Source: Planctomycetota bacterium
GTDB lineage: Bacteria; Planctomycetota; Planctomycetia; Pirellulales; Pirellulaceae
Reading direction: 5' to 3'
DNA length: 64,000 bases
Assembly (NCBI GenBank): GCA_016872775.1
Contig: VGZA01000001.1
Coordinates: forward strand, 124,001-188,000
In this document: in pieces, positions 49,133 to 57,345 of the stretch
How positions within the stretch are numbered: the stretch's first letter is position 1
Layout: the number at the start of each line of letters is the position of its first letter
Notes under the pieces: generated by a model
The model's input: the letters and a program-made list of their open reading frames with translations, nothing else
Told to the model about the DNA's origin: nothing
Databases searched by the model: none
Translations under genes and position numbers: made by a program

Positions 49133-49462
49133 CCCGGGAGTCCGTTCGTAGTTGACTTGCGCGCTCAGTGAGTTACTGAGCTTGGGTTACCAGGGCGGCG
49201 CTGCGCGCGGCCGTTGAGGCCGGTGTGCGTCGTTGCCTAGATATCGGTAACGATTAACACGATCTTGAGTATTAGTTGAACTTTGACGGCTGTCCGCATT
49301 GCGGCAAGCCAGGTGATCTGGGATAATTGGGGGTCCCTGGGGCCTTCTTGTCGGCGAACCAAAATCCCTTGGCGATTGTCGCGGTTTGAGTATTCTGCAA
49401 TATCCCCAGTTTGCCCGGGCATCTCGCAAGGAAGCCTCCGACAGGTAAGAATCAGGTCACTC
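49133..49462. other. Intergenic region upstream of metH
   Basis: 330 bases between divergent genes, so promoters for both must lie here. I looked for a cobalamin or SAM riboswitch ahead of metH; no B12 box or SAM-I kink-turn consensus could be recognised. No gene was seen. In-frame codons upstream of 49463 extend the metH frame but have no family similarity. Confidence 0.5.
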
Positions 49463-52400
49463 ATGGCAAAAACTCCGTATTCCACAAGGTCGCAGAATCT
49501 CATCGAAAGGCTTCGGGAAGACATTCTCGTGCTGGACGGCGCGATGGGAACATTGCTGCAATCGTTGCGACTCAGCGAGGAACAAGTACGGGGCGCGCGG
49601 TTCGCCTCGCACACCAAGGACCTCAGCCGATTTCCCGACGTGCTCTGTCTGACCCGGCCTGACGATGTCACCAGTGCGCACTGCAAGTACCTTGAGGCCG
49701 GCGCCGACATTATCGAGACCAATACCTTTGGTGCCTCGCTGGTCGGCGTCGAGGAGTTCGGACTTTCGGCGGACGACGTGCGGGACATCAACCGGGCCGC
49801 CGTCGGCTGTGCCCGACGCGCGGCCGAACTCTACGCCGGCAAAACGCCCGGGAAGCCGCGCTTCGTCGCCGGTTCGATCGGCCCCACCGCCAAGCAGATG
49901 TCGATTTCCACCAATGCCGACGACGCCGGCACGCGCGGGATCGAGTTCCCTGCGATGGTCGATTCCTACTACGCCCAGGTCGCGGGATTGCTGGAAGGGG
50001 GGGTCGACCTGCTGCTCCCGGAGACCGTCGTCGACACCTTGAATTTGAAGGCCTGCCTGGTGGCGATCGCGCGTTGCTTCGAAGATCTCGGTGTGCGCGT
50101 ACCGGTGATCGCTTCCGGCGCATTCAACGAGGCGGGAGTCACGTTTGTTTCCAGCCAATCAGTCGAGGCGTTCTGGAATACTGTTTCGCACTTTCCGCTG
50201 CTGGCGATCAGCATGAACTGCGCGCTGGGTCCGGTGCAGATGCGCCCGCATCTGGAGGAGCTGCAGGGCGTCGCGGAAGTGCCGGTCTGCTGTTATCCGA
50301 ATGCAGGTTTGCCGAATGAAATGGGGCAGTATGACCTCGCCCCGGGGAAGATGGCCGAGTTGATCGGCGAGTTCGCCCGGAACGGTTGGGTCAACATTGT
50401 GGGTGGATGCTGCGGAACGACGCCCGCCCACATCGCCGCGATGGTGGAACGGGTGCGTGGGATGCGACCACACGCGCCACCGCGCCGAGAACCACGCTTA
50501 CGACTCAGCGGCACGCTGCCGTTTGAGTTGCGGCCGGAGACCAACTTCGTGATGGTCGGCGAGCGGACCAATGTGACTGGCTCCAAGGCATTCGCGAACC
50601 TGATTCGAAAAGGCGAACTTGAACCGGCGGTCGAGGTGGCGCGACAACAGGTCGAGAATGGCGCCACGATCATCGACGTGAACATGGACGACGCGCTGCT
50701 CGACGGCGCGGCGGCGATGCGCCGATTCCTGCGATTGATCGCCGGCGAGCGGGACATTTCCAAGGTCCCCGTGATGCTTGACAGTTCCAAGTGGGAGGTG
50801 ATCGAGGCGGGTCTGGAATGCCTGCAAGGCAAGGGCATCGTGAATTCGATCAGCCTGAAGGACGGCGAAGAGGAGTTCCTGCGTCGCGCGCGGCTCGTCC
50901 GCCGTTATGGCGCCGCCGCGGTCGTGATGGCGTTCGACGAATCGGGTCAGGCGGTCGAGACCGATCATAAAGTCGCCATCTGCCGCCGCGCCTTCGAACT
51001 GCTCGTCCACAAAGCCGGATTTCCGCCCCAGGATATCATCTTCGACCCGAATATCCTCACCGTCGCCACGGGGATGGAGGAACATAACCGCTACGCGCTG
51101 AACTTCATCGACGCCACACGCCGAATCAAAGCCGAATGCCCCGGCGCCAAGATCTCGGGCGGGGTGAGCAATATCTCGTTCTCCTTTCGCGGCAACGACA
51201 CCGTACGCGAGGCGATGCACTCGGCATTCCTGTACCACGCGATCCAGGCCGGCATGGACATGGGAATCGTCAACGCCGGACAACTCGCGGTTTACGATTC
51301 GGTTCCCGGCGAGTTGCTGCAGCGCGTCGAGGATGTGTTGTTCGACCGGCGTCCCGACGCCACGGAACGGCTGATCGAGTTCGCGGGCCAGGTCAAAGGC
51401 AAGTCCCGGTCGGGCCAAGAGGAGAATCCGGCCTGGCGAACCAAACCGGTCCAGGAGCGGCTGAAGCACGCGTTGATCGAGGGAATCGACCGTTACATCG
51501 ATCAGGACGTGGAGGAGGCCAGGCATCACTACGATCGTTGCCTGAAGATTATCGAAGGCCCGATGATGGACGGCATGGCGGTTGTCGGGGATCTGTTCGG
51601 TTCCGGCATGATGTTCCTGCCCCAAGTCGTGAAGTCGGCTCGCGTCATGAAGAAGGCTGTGGCCTACCTGCTGCCGTTCATGGAACAGGAAAAGCGGGAA
51701 CTGGGACTGGCCGAACAACGGGCGCGGGGCAAGATCCTGCTGGCGACCGTCAAAGGCGACGTGCACGATATCGGCAAGAATATCGTGGGAGTCGTGATGG
51801 CGTGTAACAACTACGAGGTCATCGACCTCGGCGTAATGACCGCCTGCGAGAAGATCCTGCGGACGGCCGTCGAACAGCAAGTTGATATCATCGGCCTTTC
51901 GGGCCTGATCACTCCCAGCCTCGACGAAATGGTGCACGTGGCCCGGGAGATGCAGCGCAGCAACTGCCAACTGCCGCTGCTGATCGGTGGCGCGACCACC
52001 AGCGCGAAACACACGGCGGTCCGCATCGCGCCGCATTATGCCAGCCCGGTCGTGCATGTGCTCGACGCGTCACGCTGCGTCGGCGTTGTCGACAAACTGT
52101 TGAACCGCGAAACGGCGACCGCGTTCGCGGACGACAACCGCCGCCTGCAGTCGGAACTGGTGCGGAGTTATGAGCAGCGTCAGGTGACTCTAACGCCCTA
52201 CCAACAGGCGTACGCGAAGCGATTCCAGACCGATTGGAATACGGTCCGGATCGACCAACCGGAGTTCCTCGGTGCAAGGGTCCTGCATGACGTTCCCCTG
52301 GATCTGCTCGTCCCGTACATCGACTGGTCACCGTTCTTTCTCACCTGGGAGATGAGAGGGAGATACCCCACGATCCTGAATGACGCGCAGTGCGGCCGGC

Positions 52401-53167
52401 ATGCCCGGGAGTTGTTCGAAGACGCGCAACAGCTGTTGAAACAGATCGTCAAGGAGCATTTGCTGCGGGCGCGCGCGGTCTATGGATTCTGGCCGGCCTC
52501 CAGCGAGGGCGATGACGTCGTCGTCTTTTCTGATGAATCGCGCACCCATGAACTGACGCGATTCTGCATGGTGCGGCAGCAATGGGAACGCAAAGGACAA
52601 TTTGATTTTCGCAGCCTGGCCGATTACGTCGCGCCCGCGACGTCGGGGCGGCGGGACTATCTGGGGGCCTTCGCACTCACCACCGGCATCGGGGCCGATG
52701 AGTTGTGCAGGCAATTCGATCGTCAGCACGACGATCTGGGATCGATCATGACCAAGGCGCTCGCCGACCGGCTCGCGGAAGCACTCGCCGAATACCTGCA
52801 CCAGCGCGCGCGGCGGGAATGGGGATACGGTCGGGAGGAGAATTTGTCGAGCGACGAGTTGATTGAAGAGAAATACCGGGGAATTCGCCCGGCGCATGGG
52901 TATCCAGCGTGCCCGGACCATTCGGAAAAAGGCAAATTGTTCACATTGCTGGACGCCACCGCCCGGATCGGTATCCAATTGACCGAATCGTACGCGATGT
53001 GGCCGGCAGCCAGTGTCAGCGGCTTGTATTTCGCCCATCCGCAGGCGCGCTACTTCGCCGTCGATCGCGTCAGCAGGGACCAGGTCGAGGATTACGCGCG
53101 CCGCAAGGGAATTTCGCTGGGGGAGGCAGAACGCTGGCTGGCGCCAAACCTCGGGTATGATCCTTGA
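49463..53167 (+). CDS. metH: Cobalamin-dependent methionine synthase
   Basis: 1234 residues from the ATG at 49463 (the frame is open further upstream, but the family N-terminus begins here). MetH transfers the methyl group of methyltetrahydrofolate to homocysteine through cobalamin. All four modules are present: homocysteine domain with DGAMGTLLQ, the zinc ligand Cys in [10 protein letters not shown] and GGCCGT; pterin domain ([20 protein letters not shown]); cobalamin domain with the axial His in [16 protein letters not shown] and the [16 protein letters not shown] motif; and C-terminal AdoMet reactivation domain ([20 protein letters not shown]). Full length, so reactivation is self-contained. 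Confidence 0.98.
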
Positions 53168-53309: not shown

Positions 53310-56036
53310 ATGGCGATTTCCGCTCGACAATTCGCGCAACGCATCCTCGAAAGCGGCTTGCTGACCGCCGTGGAACTGGCCGATTTCCGTGAGCAACACG
53401 CGGACGCGGCGGACGCGGAAACCGGCAATCAACTCGCCGAACGCTTGATCGCACACCACAAGCTCACCAAGTTCCAGGTCGCGCGATTGCTCGAAGGCCA
53501 GCATTTCGGGCTGGTGCTCGGGAATTACGTGCTGTTGGAGAAGATTGGCGAAGGGGGGATGGGCGAGGTCTTCTGCGCCGAACATCGGCGGATGCGTCGA
53601 TTGGTGGCCGTGAAGCTGCTCCGTGCCGAACTGCTCGGTTCGGAAGTCGCCGTACGCCGATTCGAACGTGAAGTACAGGCCGCCGCACAACTCGTGCATC
53701 CCAATATCGTGACCGCATTCGACGCCGATTCTGCCGGTGAATTGCACTTTCTGGTGATGGAGTTCGTCAACGGGACCGATCTGGGAACGATTGTCTCCCG
53801 CGAGGGACCGTTACCGGTCAACCGGGCGATGAACTACATCCTGCAGGTCGCTCGCGGACTGGAGTACGCTCACGGCAAAGGCATCGTCCATCGCGACATC
53901 AAGCCCTCAAACCTGCTGCTCGATGAGCAGGGGGTCGTGAAGATCCTAGACATGGGGCTGGCCCGCTTCGATTCGTCGATAGAGTGGGCCGGCGATCATC
54001 TGACGCGCGAAAATCAGATCATCGGCACGGTCGAGTATATGGCGCCCGAGCAGGGGCAGGATTCCAAGCATGTGGATCGGCGCTCGGATATCTACAGCCT
54101 CGGCTGCACCTTCTATCGCCTGGTCACCGGCAATCCACCCTACGTGGCTGATAGTCCGCTGATGGTGATGCTGGCACACCAGTCCCATCCGCTCCCTACA
54201 CTCTGTGACGCCTTGGGATCGGCGGCCGAACCGCTGGACGCGGTATTCCACAGGATGATCGCCAAGGCGCCGCGGGATCGCTACGTGTCGATCGGAGAAT
54301 TCCTGGAGGATCTTCGTCGCATCGAGGACCTGGACAGCTCCGAGCTTCGCGTGGAAAGGCCGCTACGGTTTACGACCGGCAGCTTGCCAACGCGCACGAT
54401 CGATTCCGACGAACTGGCCGCCGTTACCACGGTGCACCCCGGGGTGACCAGCGCTTTGGCGAGCGAACCGACGCGTCCCCCTCCGACAGCGAGCGACACG
54501 ATCCGGGCGTCCGCGCTGGGCATCGACCTTGGCACCACCTATTCGGTAATGGCCCGTCTGGACGAACAAGGCCGGCCCGTCACGATCCCCAACGCGGAAG
54601 GAGAAATACTGACTCCAAGCGTGGTGTTTTTCGAAGGCGATCAAGTTATCGTCGGCCGCGAGGCGGTGCGCGCCATGACGACGGAGATCGATTCGGTGGC
54701 GGAGAGTCCCAAACTGCAGTTGGGGGACCGTTTCTTCGACAAGCCGCTGGGCGGCCGTTCCTATGCGCCCGAGGTGCTGCAGGCCCACATCCTGAACAAA
54801 TTGCGCAACGATGTGCGGCAGAGTTTTCCCGGCGTCTGCCACGCCGTCATTACGGTTCCCGCTTACTTCGATGAAGTCCGCCGCAGGGCGACCCAGGACG
54901 CCGGGTACATGGCGGGACTGGATATACTCGACGTGCTGAACGAACCGACCGCGGCGGCGATCAGTTATGGATTCCAGCAGGGTTACCTGAATGCCGACGA
55001 CGCGCGGACCGAAGCGCGGCGCGTCTTGATCTACGATCTGGGAGGCGGCACCTTCGACGTAGCGTTGATGGAATTGTCCGGAAATCAATTCCGGATGCTG
55101 GCGACCGACGGAGATATGCGTCTGGGAGGACGCGACTGGAGCCAGCGGCTGGTCGATCGCGTGAGCCAGGCGTTTCTCGATCAACATGGTATCGACCCGC
55201 GGCGCGATCCGATACAGAAGATACGGCTCTGGCGCGACTGCGAGGACGCGAAGCACTCGCTATCGATCCGCGGCCGAACTCAACTCGTCTGCGACTACCT
55301 GCAACGCGCGGTGAAACTGGAGATCACACGCAAGGAATTCGAGCAATCAACGCGCGACCTTCTTGGCCGAACCGTCTTCACCGTGCGACAGTTGATGAAG
55401 GCCTCGCAGTTGGAATGGCAGGACCTGGACCGCATTCTGCTCGTGGGAGGCGCCACGCGCATGCCCGTCGTGGCCGCATGCCTGGAAAAGCTTTCCGGCC
55501 GGCAGCCCGACCGTTCCCTGTCGCCCGACGAATCGGTGGCTCACGGCGCGGCGCTGTACGCCGCGATGCTGCTCGCACGCGGCAAAGGCGAACCGGCCCC
55601 TTTTCAAGTCCAGAACGTCAATTCGCACAGCCTGGGCGTGGTTGCGACCGTCAGCACGTCCCGCCGCAGCGCGAACATCGTGCTGATCCCGAAAAACACG
55701 CCCCTGCCCGCGACACACCATTGCATCTTCCGTACCCACAAAACGGGCCAACGTTCCTTGCTGTTGCGAATCGTGGAAGGCGAAAGCGAAGACCCCGACC
55801 AGTGCGCCCAGGTCGGACAATGTTCCGTGCAAGGACTCCCGCCCGACCTGCCCGTAAAAACACCAGTGAACGTTGAATTCGCGTACACCGAAAGCGGGCG
55901 GCTCCGAGTCCGCGTCGCGATCGCCGACTCGCAAAACTTCACCGAATACCCCATCACCCGCCCCTACAGCCTCAGTCCCGTCGAAATCTACTCCTGGCGT
56001 GAAATTATCACCGTAGATCGATCGATCAGCCGGTGA
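53310..56036 (+). CDS. Ser/Thr protein kinase fused to an Hsp70 (DnaK-like) chaperone
   Basis: 908 residues. The planctomycete kinase helper domain (about 1-70, HHKLTKFQVARLLEGQHFGL) leads into a Hanks-type kinase (about 73-345): IGEGGMGEVFCAEH P-loop, VAVKLLRAE Lys, IVHRDIKPSNLLLD catalytic loop, ILDMGLARFD (DMG for DFG) and EYMAPEQGQDS. A Pro/Thr-rich linker (about 350-400) joins an Hsp70 ATPase domain (about 407-760) with ALGIDLGTTYSVMARLDEQG, VPAYFDEVRRRATQDAGYMA, LNEPTAAAISYGF, IYDLGGGTFDVALMELSG and ILLVGGATRMPVV. About 140 residues of beta-type substrate-binding domain follow; the helical lid of DnaK is missing. No membrane helix. It follows metH by 142 bases and appears monocistronic. 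Both catalytic sites look intact. Confidence 0.93.
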   Translation: MAISARQFAQRILESGLLTAVELADFREQHADAADAETGNQLAERLIAHHKLTKFQVARLLEGQHFGLVLGNYVLLEKIGEGGMGEVFCAEHRRMRRLVAVKLLRAELLGSEVAVRRFEREVQAAAQLVHPNIVTAFDADSAGELHFLVMEFVNGTDLGTIVSREGPLPVNRAMNYILQVARGLEYAHGKGIVHRDIKPSNLLLDEQGVVKILDMGLARFDSSIEWAGDHLTRENQIIGTVEYMAPEQGQDSKHVDRRSDIYSLGCTFYRLVTGNPPYVADSPLMVMLAHQSHPLPTLCDALGSAAEPLDAVFHRMIAKAPRDRYVSIGEFLEDLRRIEDLDSSELRVERPLRFTTGSLPTRTIDSDELAAVTTVHPGVTSALASEPTRPPPTASDTIRASALGIDLGTTYSVMARLDEQGRPVTIPNAEGEILTPSVVFFEGDQVIVGREAVRAMTTEIDSVAESPKLQLGDRFFDKPLGGRSYAPEVLQAHILNKLRNDVRQSFPGVCHAVITVPAYFDEVRRRATQDAGYMAGLDILDVLNEPTAAAISYGFQQGYLNADDARTEARRVLIYDLGGGTFDVALMELSGNQFRMLATDGDMRLGGRDWSQRLVDRVSQAFLDQHGIDPRRDPIQKIRLWRDCEDAKHSLSIRGRTQLVCDYLQRAVKLEITRKEFEQSTRDLLGRTVFTVRQLMKASQLEWQDLDRILLVGGATRMPVVAACLEKLSGRQPDRSLSPDESVAHGAALYAAMLLARGKGEPAPFQVQNVNSHSLGVVATVSTSRRSANIVLIPKNTPLPATHHCIFRTHKTGQRSLLLRIVEGESEDPDQCAQVGQCSVQGLPPDLPVKTPVNVEFAYTESGRLRVRVAIADSQNFTEYPITRPYSLSPVEIYSWREIITVDRSISR

Positions 56037-56172
56037 AGAGGGGAACGGGTTACGGCAACCCGTTCCGCCGTCACCGTCACCGTTCCCTGTCCTCCGTTCC
56101 CCGTGCCCCGGCCTAGGTTTCGGCGGCGGGGACTGCTACAGTCTGGGTTTGGGAACCGCGAGGAAAACTGCG

Positions 56173-57345
56173 ATGCGAGAGGACTACCGAAATCGACGCC
56201 GACCCGACCCGCGCCCGCGGCGCAAGGTGGACCGTCCACCGTCGCAGTCGCCGACCGGTCCCGTGGAGGATTCCCCGGCCCGAGGGGAACGGCTGCAGAA
56301 GGTGTTGGCCGCCGCGGGAATCGCCAGCCGCCGTGAGTGCGAGGAGTTGATTCTGGCGGGTCGCGTGGAAGTCGAACGGCGCGTCGTCACGACACTGGGG
56401 ACGCGCGTCGATCCGTTGGCGCAGGAAATCCGCGTGGATGGAGTCACGTTACCGCGCCCCAAGCGGGCCTACTTTCTGCTGAACAAACCGTCTGGCGTGG
56501 TTTGCACGAATGACGATCCAAGCGGCCGCGCGCGTGTGATCGACTTGATCAAGTCCGACCTGCGGCTCTTTCCGGTCGGACGACTCGACCGTTCCTCGGA
56601 AGGCCTGATCGTGGTCACCAATGACGGAGCGCTCGCCAACCGCCTGACCCATCCTCGGTACGGCATCGAGAAGACGTATCTGGCGCGGTGCGTGGGACAT
56701 CTGACCCAGGTCGATTTCGATCGTTTGCGGAGCGGTGTGCGCCTGGCGGAAGGGGTCGCGCGGGTCGAGTCGATCACGCTTAAGAAACGCCACCCGCAGA
56801 GTTCCGACCTGATTATCGTTTTGAAGGAGGGCCGCAACCGCGAGATCCGTCGGATTCTGGCCAGCGTCGGGCACAAGGTTCTGCATTTGCGTCGGATTGC
56901 GATCGGGCCGATCCGCATCGAGGATCTGCCGATCGGCGCTTACCGCAAGTTATTGTTCGAGGAAGTGCAATTGCTGGAAAAGGCGGCACGGGACTCGAAG
57001 CAATCGGGCCGACGAGGCTCCGAAGCGCGGTCCGGTTCGCCGGACATGAAGCGGCGACCAGGCGCGCGCCCGCCACGCCGATCCTCGACGCAAGCGTCCT
57101 CGTCCACTCAAGATCAGCGTCCTGCCCGCCCGCAACGTCCGGGACGTCCGGGACGTCCCCAGCGCCCGTCGGGTCGGCCGCGTCCCGAAGGTCGGCCGCG
57201 TCCCGAAGGTCGGCCGCGTCCCGAAGGTCGGCCGCGTCCCGAAGGTCGGCCGCGTCCCGAAGGTCGGCCGCGTCCCGAAGGTCGGCCGCGTCCCGCGCGA
57301 CCGTCGCGCCGGCAGCGCCCCCCGCGCGAGGAACTGCCTGAATGA
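56173..57345 (+). CDS. RsuA/RluB-family rRNA pseudouridine synthase
   Basis: 390 residues from the ATG at 56173. There is an S4 RNA-binding domain (about 40-95, LQKVLAAAGIASRRECEELI) and a catalytic domain with the GRLDRSSEGLIVVTNDGALA motif, whose Asp is the nucleophile. RKNREIRR-type text (GRNREIRRILASVGHKVLHL) closes the RluB/RsuA core. These enzymes isomerise uridine in 16S or 23S rRNA; which site cannot be read. The N-terminus is basic and Pro-rich, and the C-terminus (from about 275) is a very basic Arg/Pro tail made mostly of GRPRPE repeats, likely disordered and RNA-interacting. Its stop overlaps the pyrK start (ATGA). Confidence 0.92.
   Translation: MREDYRNRRRPDPRPRRKVDRPPSQSPTGPVEDSPARGERLQKVLAAAGIASRRECEELILAGRVEVERRVVTTLGTRVDPLAQEIRVDGVTLPRPKRAYFLLNKPSGVVCTNDDPSGRARVIDLIKSDLRLFPVGRLDRSSEGLIVVTNDGALANRLTHPRYGIEKTYLARCVGHLTQVDFDRLRSGVRLAEGVARVESITLKKRHPQSSDLIIVLKEGRNREIRRILASVGHKVLHLRRIAIGPIRIEDLPIGAYRKLLFEEVQLLEKAARDSKQSGRRGSEARSGSPDMKRRPGARPPRRSSTQASSSTQDQRPARPQRPGRPGRPQRPSGRPRPEGRPRPEGRPRPEGRPRPEGRPRPEGRPRPEGRPRPARPSRRQRPPREELPE
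57172..57297 (+). repeat. 18-bp coding tandem repeat (GRPRPE)
   Basis: Six identical copies of GGTCGGCCGCGTCCCGAA followed by a seventh differing only in its last two bases. Each encodes Gly-Arg-Pro-Arg-Pro-Glu in the basic tail of the pseudouridine synthase. Identity at the DNA level points to recent or ongoing slippage. Confidence 0.95.

Follow-up and report, generated by a model that had tools for sequence, protein, structure and literature searches.

A planctomycete protein joining a Hanks-type kinase to a lidless Hsp70, its ATPase-intact and ATPase-lost relatives, and a possible input role for the Hsp70 half

Can an Hsp70 module carried on the same chain as a protein kinase serve as its input domain? 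The question is raised by a gene of a Pirellulaceae planctomycete (5.85 Mb genome, 141 contigs), lying in a stretch of 64,000 nucleotides (contig VGZA01000001.1, positions 124,001 to 188,000, hereafter the window). Its predicted product, of 908 amino acids (aa), is a kinase-Hsp70 fusion. We give about even chances to a reading in which the protein is a Ser/Thr kinase equipped with its own Hsp70-type recognition module, the Hsp70 input switching the kinase output.

Two modules in one reading frame

The open reading frame (ORF) starts with ATG and has no internal stop. Its product matches Pfam Pkinase at residues 73-283 (E 2.8e-50) and HSP70 at residues 403-893 (E 4.5e-105), values that exclude chance matches. 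All the motifs named in a first-pass annotation are present: GEGGMGEV (80-87), VAVK, HRDIKPSN (194-201), DMG and YMAPEQ (243-248) in the kinase, and DLGTTYS (from 406), YDLGGGTFDVA (575-585) and VGGATRMP (712-719) in the Hsp70. By profile and motifs (catalytic Lys, HRD Asp, DxG Asp and PE), the N-terminal half is a Hanks-type Ser/Thr kinase. It scores below the cut-off for PASTA kinases (PknB/Stk1; NF033483, 309.3 bits against 450, residues 71-346), and no PASTA repeats were found in the Pfam scan of the protein. Many kinase-only planctomycete relatives align from residue 1-8 to about 340, and thus share the N-terminal helical region. The C-terminal half belongs to the Hsp70 superfamily (PF00012, 352.5 bits for a cut-off of 20.6), in agreement with its fold match to DnaK. 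It misses the NCBIfam equivalog cut-offs for DnaK (331.6 against 648 for PRK00290.1, 317.9 against 822.55 for TIGR02350) and that for HscA (295.1 against 708.55, TIGR01991). Judged from its motifs, the ATPase would be that of a working enzyme.

The absence of a lid, also proposed in the first-pass annotation, was confirmed in two ways. First, the match covers positions 2-507 of the 599 of the HSP70 profile, leaving its lid end unmatched. Second, an AlphaFold model of the protein (14 sequences, mean per-residue confidence (pLDDT) 80.5, predicted template modelling score (pTM) 0.59) displays, in this order, a helical N-terminus, the kinase, a disordered linker, the nucleotide-binding domain (NBD), a beta sandwich (strands 766-881) and a single short end helix, without lid bundle; the relative placement of kinase and Hsp70 in this model is unreliable. 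By Foldseek the model resembles BiP and DnaK, and the docked, ATP-like state is frequent among its top matches: for the Hsp70 half, 3.4-3.7 Å with 4b9q and 3.6 Å with 7krt (docked), versus 24 Å with the undocked 2v7y.

The same genome encodes a full DnaK (715-aa frame, C4:99964-101766; profile 1-598 of 599, LLLLD linker) and a standalone lidless Hsp70 (531-aa frame, G000:C42:23439-24911), which covers only HSP70 profile 1-508 and is 57% identical to the Hsp70 half of the fusion. As this standalone kin also lacks the lid, its absence is a trait of the sub-family and not of the fusion. Standalone lidless Hsp70s at 49% identity or more were found in at least 30 of 60 genomes, this one included. 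Two more Hsp70-like genes lie in tandem in the genome of the window, one with DUF3731 (L160:5048-9718, C6). At loci L162-L167, from relatives of the same order, a lidless Hsp70 gene adjoins, or lies near, a longer Hsp70 gene (frames of about 700-840 aa); Pfam scans of two of these loci, L162 and L163, gave no other family.

We searched 241 genomes of the family with residues 1-600 of the protein as query (E≤1e-115), and 19 matched. Upon reading of the ORFs, 15 of them fell into a group A (16 distinct fusions, that of the window included), one into a group B (G031) and two into a group C (G014 and G232). The last one (G021, L149:7206-9959) has a broken copy split into two ORFs, neither of which matches a middle stretch of the Hsp70 half; it was excluded from fusion counts, and ORFs under 800 aa were left out. 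Identity to the window protein in group A is 47-57% for the kinase and 49-55% for the Hsp70. The Hsp70 ATPase motifs are intact in all 16 group A members and in both group C members, save GGATY for GGATR in the latter, and are partly eroded in group B, where the kinase motifs are intact. One group A member lacks the kinase N-lobe at a contig end and has intact motifs where covered. Over all groups, those described below included, all 62 distinct fusions retain HRD and DxG, and all 61 whose sequence reaches the VAVK Lys retain that residue too. The fusion protein is probably soluble; the highest 19-residue hydrophobic mean in group A is 1.68, inside the kinase region, and no strong hydrophobic stretch is seen.

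No fusion of type A, B or C was found outside the family: a search of 396 genomes of the order returned 9, all of the same family, and in 392 genomes of the phylum the 18 matches listed besides the window all end at or before residue 431, in the kinase part. Thresholds were strict and few candidates were scored per genome, so that remote fusions may have been missed. The first-pass annotation had held that a single polypeptide carries both modules and that an artefact is unlikely, and had advised a search of planctomycete genomes for conserved order and length. The fusion stands as real, since the 16 close fusions keep kinase and Hsp70 in the same order and frame, and four loci also share the neighbour metH. 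An assembly error is ruled out by this conserved ORF and synteny.

A second lineage, and an exchange of enzyme

A Roseimaritima protein has the same order of domains, kinase then Hsp70-like, with an Hsp70 half only 24% identical to that of the window. With this protein as query (E≤1e-95, three candidates scored per genome), 109 of 240 family genomes matched; one match (G012) was the group A protein of that genome, leaving 108. Some of these matches cover only part of the query, and weak ones may be missed close to the cut-off, where E forms lie. Among the 43 distinct ORFs examined, 36 were assigned to group D, 4 to D2 and 3 to E. The E171 position is R in 36/36 D and K or R in 4/4 D2. The T199 position is A or G in 30 of the 36 D (S in 3, T in 3) and in all 4 D2, and K in the 3 E; residue columns in the D region, so diverged, are less sure. 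Group E retains K70 and E171 and, as far as these residues tell, looks intermediate in ATPase decay. On the kinase side, the motif strings visible in D include the P-loop in 33/36 and the alpha-C Glu in 34/36. The first-pass annotation had counted inactivating changes of either half in relatives as evidence against its reading. Such changes were found in the Hsp70 half only (D, D2, E, and partly B), the kinase half keeping its motifs; they suggest that some forms can do without an ATP cycle, and do not make the fusion meaningless.

The decayed module seems to have kept its fold, and selection still acts on it. In one D form (L047), Pfam still detects HSP70 (E 1.9e-22), and a model of its Hsp70 half (pTM 0.84) consists of an NBD and a beta sandwich matching DnaK, BiP and Ssb, and also an Ssz1 entry (6sr6); it was built on an alignment of true Hsp70s, which favours such an outcome. 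Between close D pairs, the ratio of nonsynonymous to synonymous substitutions (dN/dS) is 0.02-0.07 in the kinase, 0.02-0.15 in the NBD and 0.03-0.14 in the substrate-binding domain (SBD). All three domains are under purifying selection, most of all the kinase and often least of all the NBD. These values come from a single pairwise method, on pairs that share rows, only where dS was computable and with dS saturated in some. The SBD is more alike than the NBD in 137 of 190 D pairs, versus 1 of 78 A pairs, and SBD conservation in D is 0.43 (full-length alignments). D-type matches in 296 genomes of the order were found in 35, all of the same family. In four named planctomycete genomes, one of them labelled Rhodopirellula sp. 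(L082), the D query matched nothing beyond the kinase part at E≤1e-60, so that the D form is not universal. By the match lists of the two family searches, none of the 19 genomes of types A/B/C has a separate D/D2/E match, and the two sets occupy 16 and 18 genera without overlap (p 0.003, uncorrected for kinship), which fits one shared role, or merely lineage.

In the kinase tree, A and B come together with one unfused kinase (L244) inside, B being sister of an A member (96, starred); D, D2 and E form one clade (96, starred), and C shares an unresolved fork with kinases that are not fused. The Hsp70 tree places the A halves within the lidless standalone proteins (92, not starred), puts C beside DnaK (97, starred) and sets D and D2 apart on a long branch. 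After thinning of the Hsp70 rows for tree and test (from 104 to 52, L076 among those dropped), D, D2 and E fall on one side of a branch (87, not starred). Their grouping in both trees suggests that much of the ATPase decay followed joining. As read from these trees, the Hsp70 of group A most likely came from a standalone lidless Hsp70, or the reverse, and the whole looks like about three separate joins. A single origin of all fusions was not rejected by the approximately unbiased (AU) test, nor is it shown (p 0.186 for the kinase, with seven long-branch kinases and 21 of the 36 D rows dropped; p 0.302 for the Hsp70).

A fusion of the same layout exists in another phylum. WP_228183974.1, from plasmid pYINM00001 of Streptomyces anulatus (L276:4740-7163), is annotated only as 'Hsp70 family protein' and has both motif sets, with an N-terminal kinase and a C-terminal lidless Hsp70. 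It is 32% identical to the window protein and, unlike it, keeps by reading a VLLLD linker and the arginine at R167. At least one full-length relative, 82% identical and read from the ORF only, is present (G996) among 200 genomes of the S. hainanensis family; among the matches listed there, most others cover the Hsp70 part only. In S. hainanensis (L050:4951-7518, NZ_SMKI01000032.1), a caspase-like Peptidase_C14 is joined to a lidless Hsp70, a module 66% identical over 501 columns to the kinase-linked one of S. anulatus. In a further genome (G1063), a related Hsp70 module is found behind another N-terminal region. On a Rhodococcus plasmid (L277:5073-8279), the gene for a lidless Hsp70 precedes those for a protein annotated as TPR and for a GrpE. 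In Paraflavisolibacter caeni (L076:3594-9377), genes for an FHA protein, a protein without Pfam family, a lidless Hsp70 and a Ser/Thr kinase are consecutive on one strand. A common Bacteroidota kinase/Hsp70 gene pair was considered and discarded, for it was seen this once, the Hsp70 being absent at E≤1e-50 from 78 other genomes of the family searched. No relative was found in the viral contigs searched; 57 phage records had a match, and the five listed cover the Hsp70 half only.

What the Hsp70 half may do for the kinase

The Hsp70 half departs from DnaK at sites of partner control. In DnaK, signals from the J-domain and between the domains pass through R167, D393 and the hydrophobic linker (PMC7289447, PMC8215388, PMC4595643). 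This R167/D393 signature and the VLLL linker are absent from the Hsp70 of the window, and all 16 group A fusions have D in place of R167 and N in place of D393. Of 32 standalone lidless Hsp70s, 31 have D at R167 and one has N, and all 32 have N at D393; the DnaK of the same genome retains both residues. With the pair swapped and the canonical linker lost, ordinary DnaJ control of this Hsp70 seems unlikely. In the peptide pocket, group A keeps F426 and Q433; the residues at V436 and I401, and for the most part that at I438, are still hydrophobic, with Ala at I438 in 6/16. The missing lid may favour fast exchange of clients, as the first-pass annotation proposed and as work on lidless DnaK would lead one to expect.

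We propose that the Hsp70 half, which probably arose by duplication of a lidless standalone Hsp70, would most likely bind an exposed hydrophobic peptide or another protein through its beta sandwich; the ligand, from what is known of the family, would be a non-native protein. Binding would probably be coupled to the ATP state of the Hsp70 in this ATPase-competent form, and would change the docking of its two domains. Through the flexible linker, kinase activity might then be turned up or down, or the bound protein presented to the kinase. That the Hsp70 would be the input, or recognition, side and the enzyme the output side is suggested by three observations: kinase motifs stay intact where the ATPase has decayed, the decayed module is under purifying selection, and a protease can take the place of the kinase. 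The first-pass annotation had offered two versions, a chaperone half that senses and switches the kinase, or clients on the chaperone half being phosphorylated by it; either may hold.

Several points weigh against this reading. Joining and decay may have come in either order, because in the full Hsp70 tree E and B leave an unresolved fork together with intact Hsp70s, away from D and A. Group A has not retained the hydrophobic arch of the DnaK cleft (M404/A429), so that peptide binding may differ from that of DnaK or be absent, and the first P-loop Gly is Ala in two group A members. With its ATPase lost, D might work in another way than A. The neighbours of the fusion gene, of housekeeping type (metH and pseudouridine synthase here, thiC or aconitase in relatives), point to no pathway.

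The Hsp70 half may also be a mere recruiter, which holds a defined set of proteins for the tethered kinase without switching it, as do other accessory domains of planctomycete kinases. We consider this possible and somewhat unlikely. A disordered linker, differing in length and sequence among relatives, suits tethering more than tight allostery; in favour, too, are the Hsp70 fold in the model of an ATPase-lost D form and the purifying selection on D halves. A passive tether, however, has no need of the full ATPase motif set of all 16 group A members, and the docked, ATP-like modelling of the window's Hsp70 hints at a conformational switch.

Absence of any special coupling, the fusion being a lineage-specific product of a large and fast-shuffling kinome, with independent halves or one vestigial, is improbable in our view. 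In its favour are the patchiness of A/B/C (19/241), the broken copy, the four genomes with the kinase part only, and the 105 accessory domains that a survey tallies on kinases of Planctomycetota and outgroups. Against it speak same-order fusions in two phyla, D-type matches in 108/240 genomes, purifying selection on both halves in D, and the separation of the two sets of genera. Least probable is that the chaperone is the output, the kinase controlling folding activity by phosphorylating either its own chain in cis (the Hsp70 or the Thr/Ser-rich linker) or, in trans, the lidless Hsp70 that the genome encodes as a standalone protein: intact ATPase motifs in A and the presence of these candidate targets agree with it, but D, D2 and partly E lost catalytic residues on the chaperone side and not in the kinase, and the Streptomyces kin module is joined to a protease, both the opposite of what it predicts.

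Returning to the Hsp70 as input, a broader view can be offered as a tentative conjecture: planctomycetes and streptomycetes would have independently built one-protein proteostasis sensors, in which a lidless Hsp70 (freed from DnaJ control in planctomycetes) reads non-native protein and directly drives a kinase or a caspase-like protease, as a bacterial counterpart of a kinase of the unfolded protein response. The sensor would have turned into a nucleotide-independent pseudo-Hsp70 in a large share of Pirellulaceae.

Genome setting and known systems

Positions of the features are collected in Table 1. The five neighbours scanned with Pfam were metH upstream, a ParA-like ATPase further upstream, and a pseudouridine synthase, an Fe-S/FAD oxidoreductase and CorA downstream. 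The pseudouridine synthase (56149-57345) has a long C-terminal run of RPRPEG-like repeat units. The gene adjoining the fusion is metH at four loci (the window, L148, L154 and L155), thiC at nine and aconitase at five, one scanned member giving each cluster its name. Both metH and thiC are present at L154 and L155, which ties these arrangements together and fits vertical descent. No operon partner is evident at the fusion loci compared. Neither a sigma-70-like promoter nor a terminator was found around the fusion gene, which says little.

Table 1. Features of the fusion gene and its upstream neighbour (window positions).
Feature	Position	Strand	Basis
metH, cobalamin-dependent methionine synthase; upstream neighbour	49283..53167	+	Pfam; next to the fusion at four loci, that of the window among them
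Kinase-Hsp70 fusion gene, 908 aa	53310..56036	+	ORF, Pfam, same-frame relatives
N-terminal helical region, residues 1-66	53310..53507	+	Helices in AlphaFold model; no Pfam family
Hanks-type kinase domain, residues 70-340	53517..54329	+	Pfam, motifs
Kinase P-loop	53547-53570	+	
Kinase HRDIKPSN	53889-53912	+	
Kinase KILDMGLARF	53940-53969	+	
Thr/Ser/Pro-rich linker, residues 342-398, predicted disordered	54333..54503	+	pLDDT <50
Hsp70 NBD, residues 403-762, ATPase motifs intact	54516..55595	+	Pfam, motifs, fold match
Hsp70 interdomain linker and beta SBD, residues 765-885	55602..55964	+	Residue alignment, model
Single C-terminal helix, residues 890-901, at the place where the lid would begin	55977..56012	+	Model

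Defence systems were also compared. With the PD-T4-6 / MAD6 defence kinases of PADLOC, the top match spans residues 69-341, and among the best 25 of 34 the furthest end is 462; this comparison bears on the fusion protein only, its neighbours being judged from the Pfam scan of five genes. HSP70-bearing GAP1-N2 GTPase conflict systems have neighbouring GAP1/GTPase and GrpE genes (PMC7159879), none of which is among the five scanned neighbours.

The architecture itself is already in print, without function, and the window protein adds a member to it. Krupa & Srinivasan (2005) tabulate an entry 'Kinase + HSP70' for one gene of Pirellula sp. (Rhodopirellula baltica), gi|32474490, and describe its domain as a homologue of HSP70 chaperones (PMC1262709). 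The window protein has this same architecture, a kinase and a C-terminal HSP70-homologous domain, in the same order and in the same phylum; the Pirellula gene differs in being a single table entry with no function given. Hsp70 and DnaK are absent from the main text of a 2024 survey of Planctomycetota kinases (term search), whose supplementary tables may list the combination. We found no study of such a fusion protein in the open literature, a coverage that leaves out most subscription journals, and within it neither the distribution of ATPase-intact and ATPase-lost forms nor the effector swap was found in print.

Among known Hsp70s, the standalone ones of Pirellulales are close in kind; they are likewise lidless, with D at R167 and N at D393, and differ by having no kinase. 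The DnaK of the same genome shares the Hsp70 fold and ATPase motifs with the fusion, but has a lid part, the LLLLD linker, R167 and D393, which the fusion lacks. Hsp70s regulate kinases in trans: the output of PERK and IRE1 is governed by BiP, and that of HRI by Hsc70. Ssz1 is an ATPase-inactive, lidless Hsp70 kept as a non-catalytic platform. In all these cases the Hsp70 is a separate protein, and we take them as working analogies, with no claim of homology. In the fusion, kinase and Hsp70 form a single chain, and natural ATPase-intact, ATPase-lost and effector-swapped forms make the role of Hsp70 as an input domain, and its need for ATP, directly testable. The fusion may thereby hint at what the large and poorly characterised planctomycete kinome listens to.

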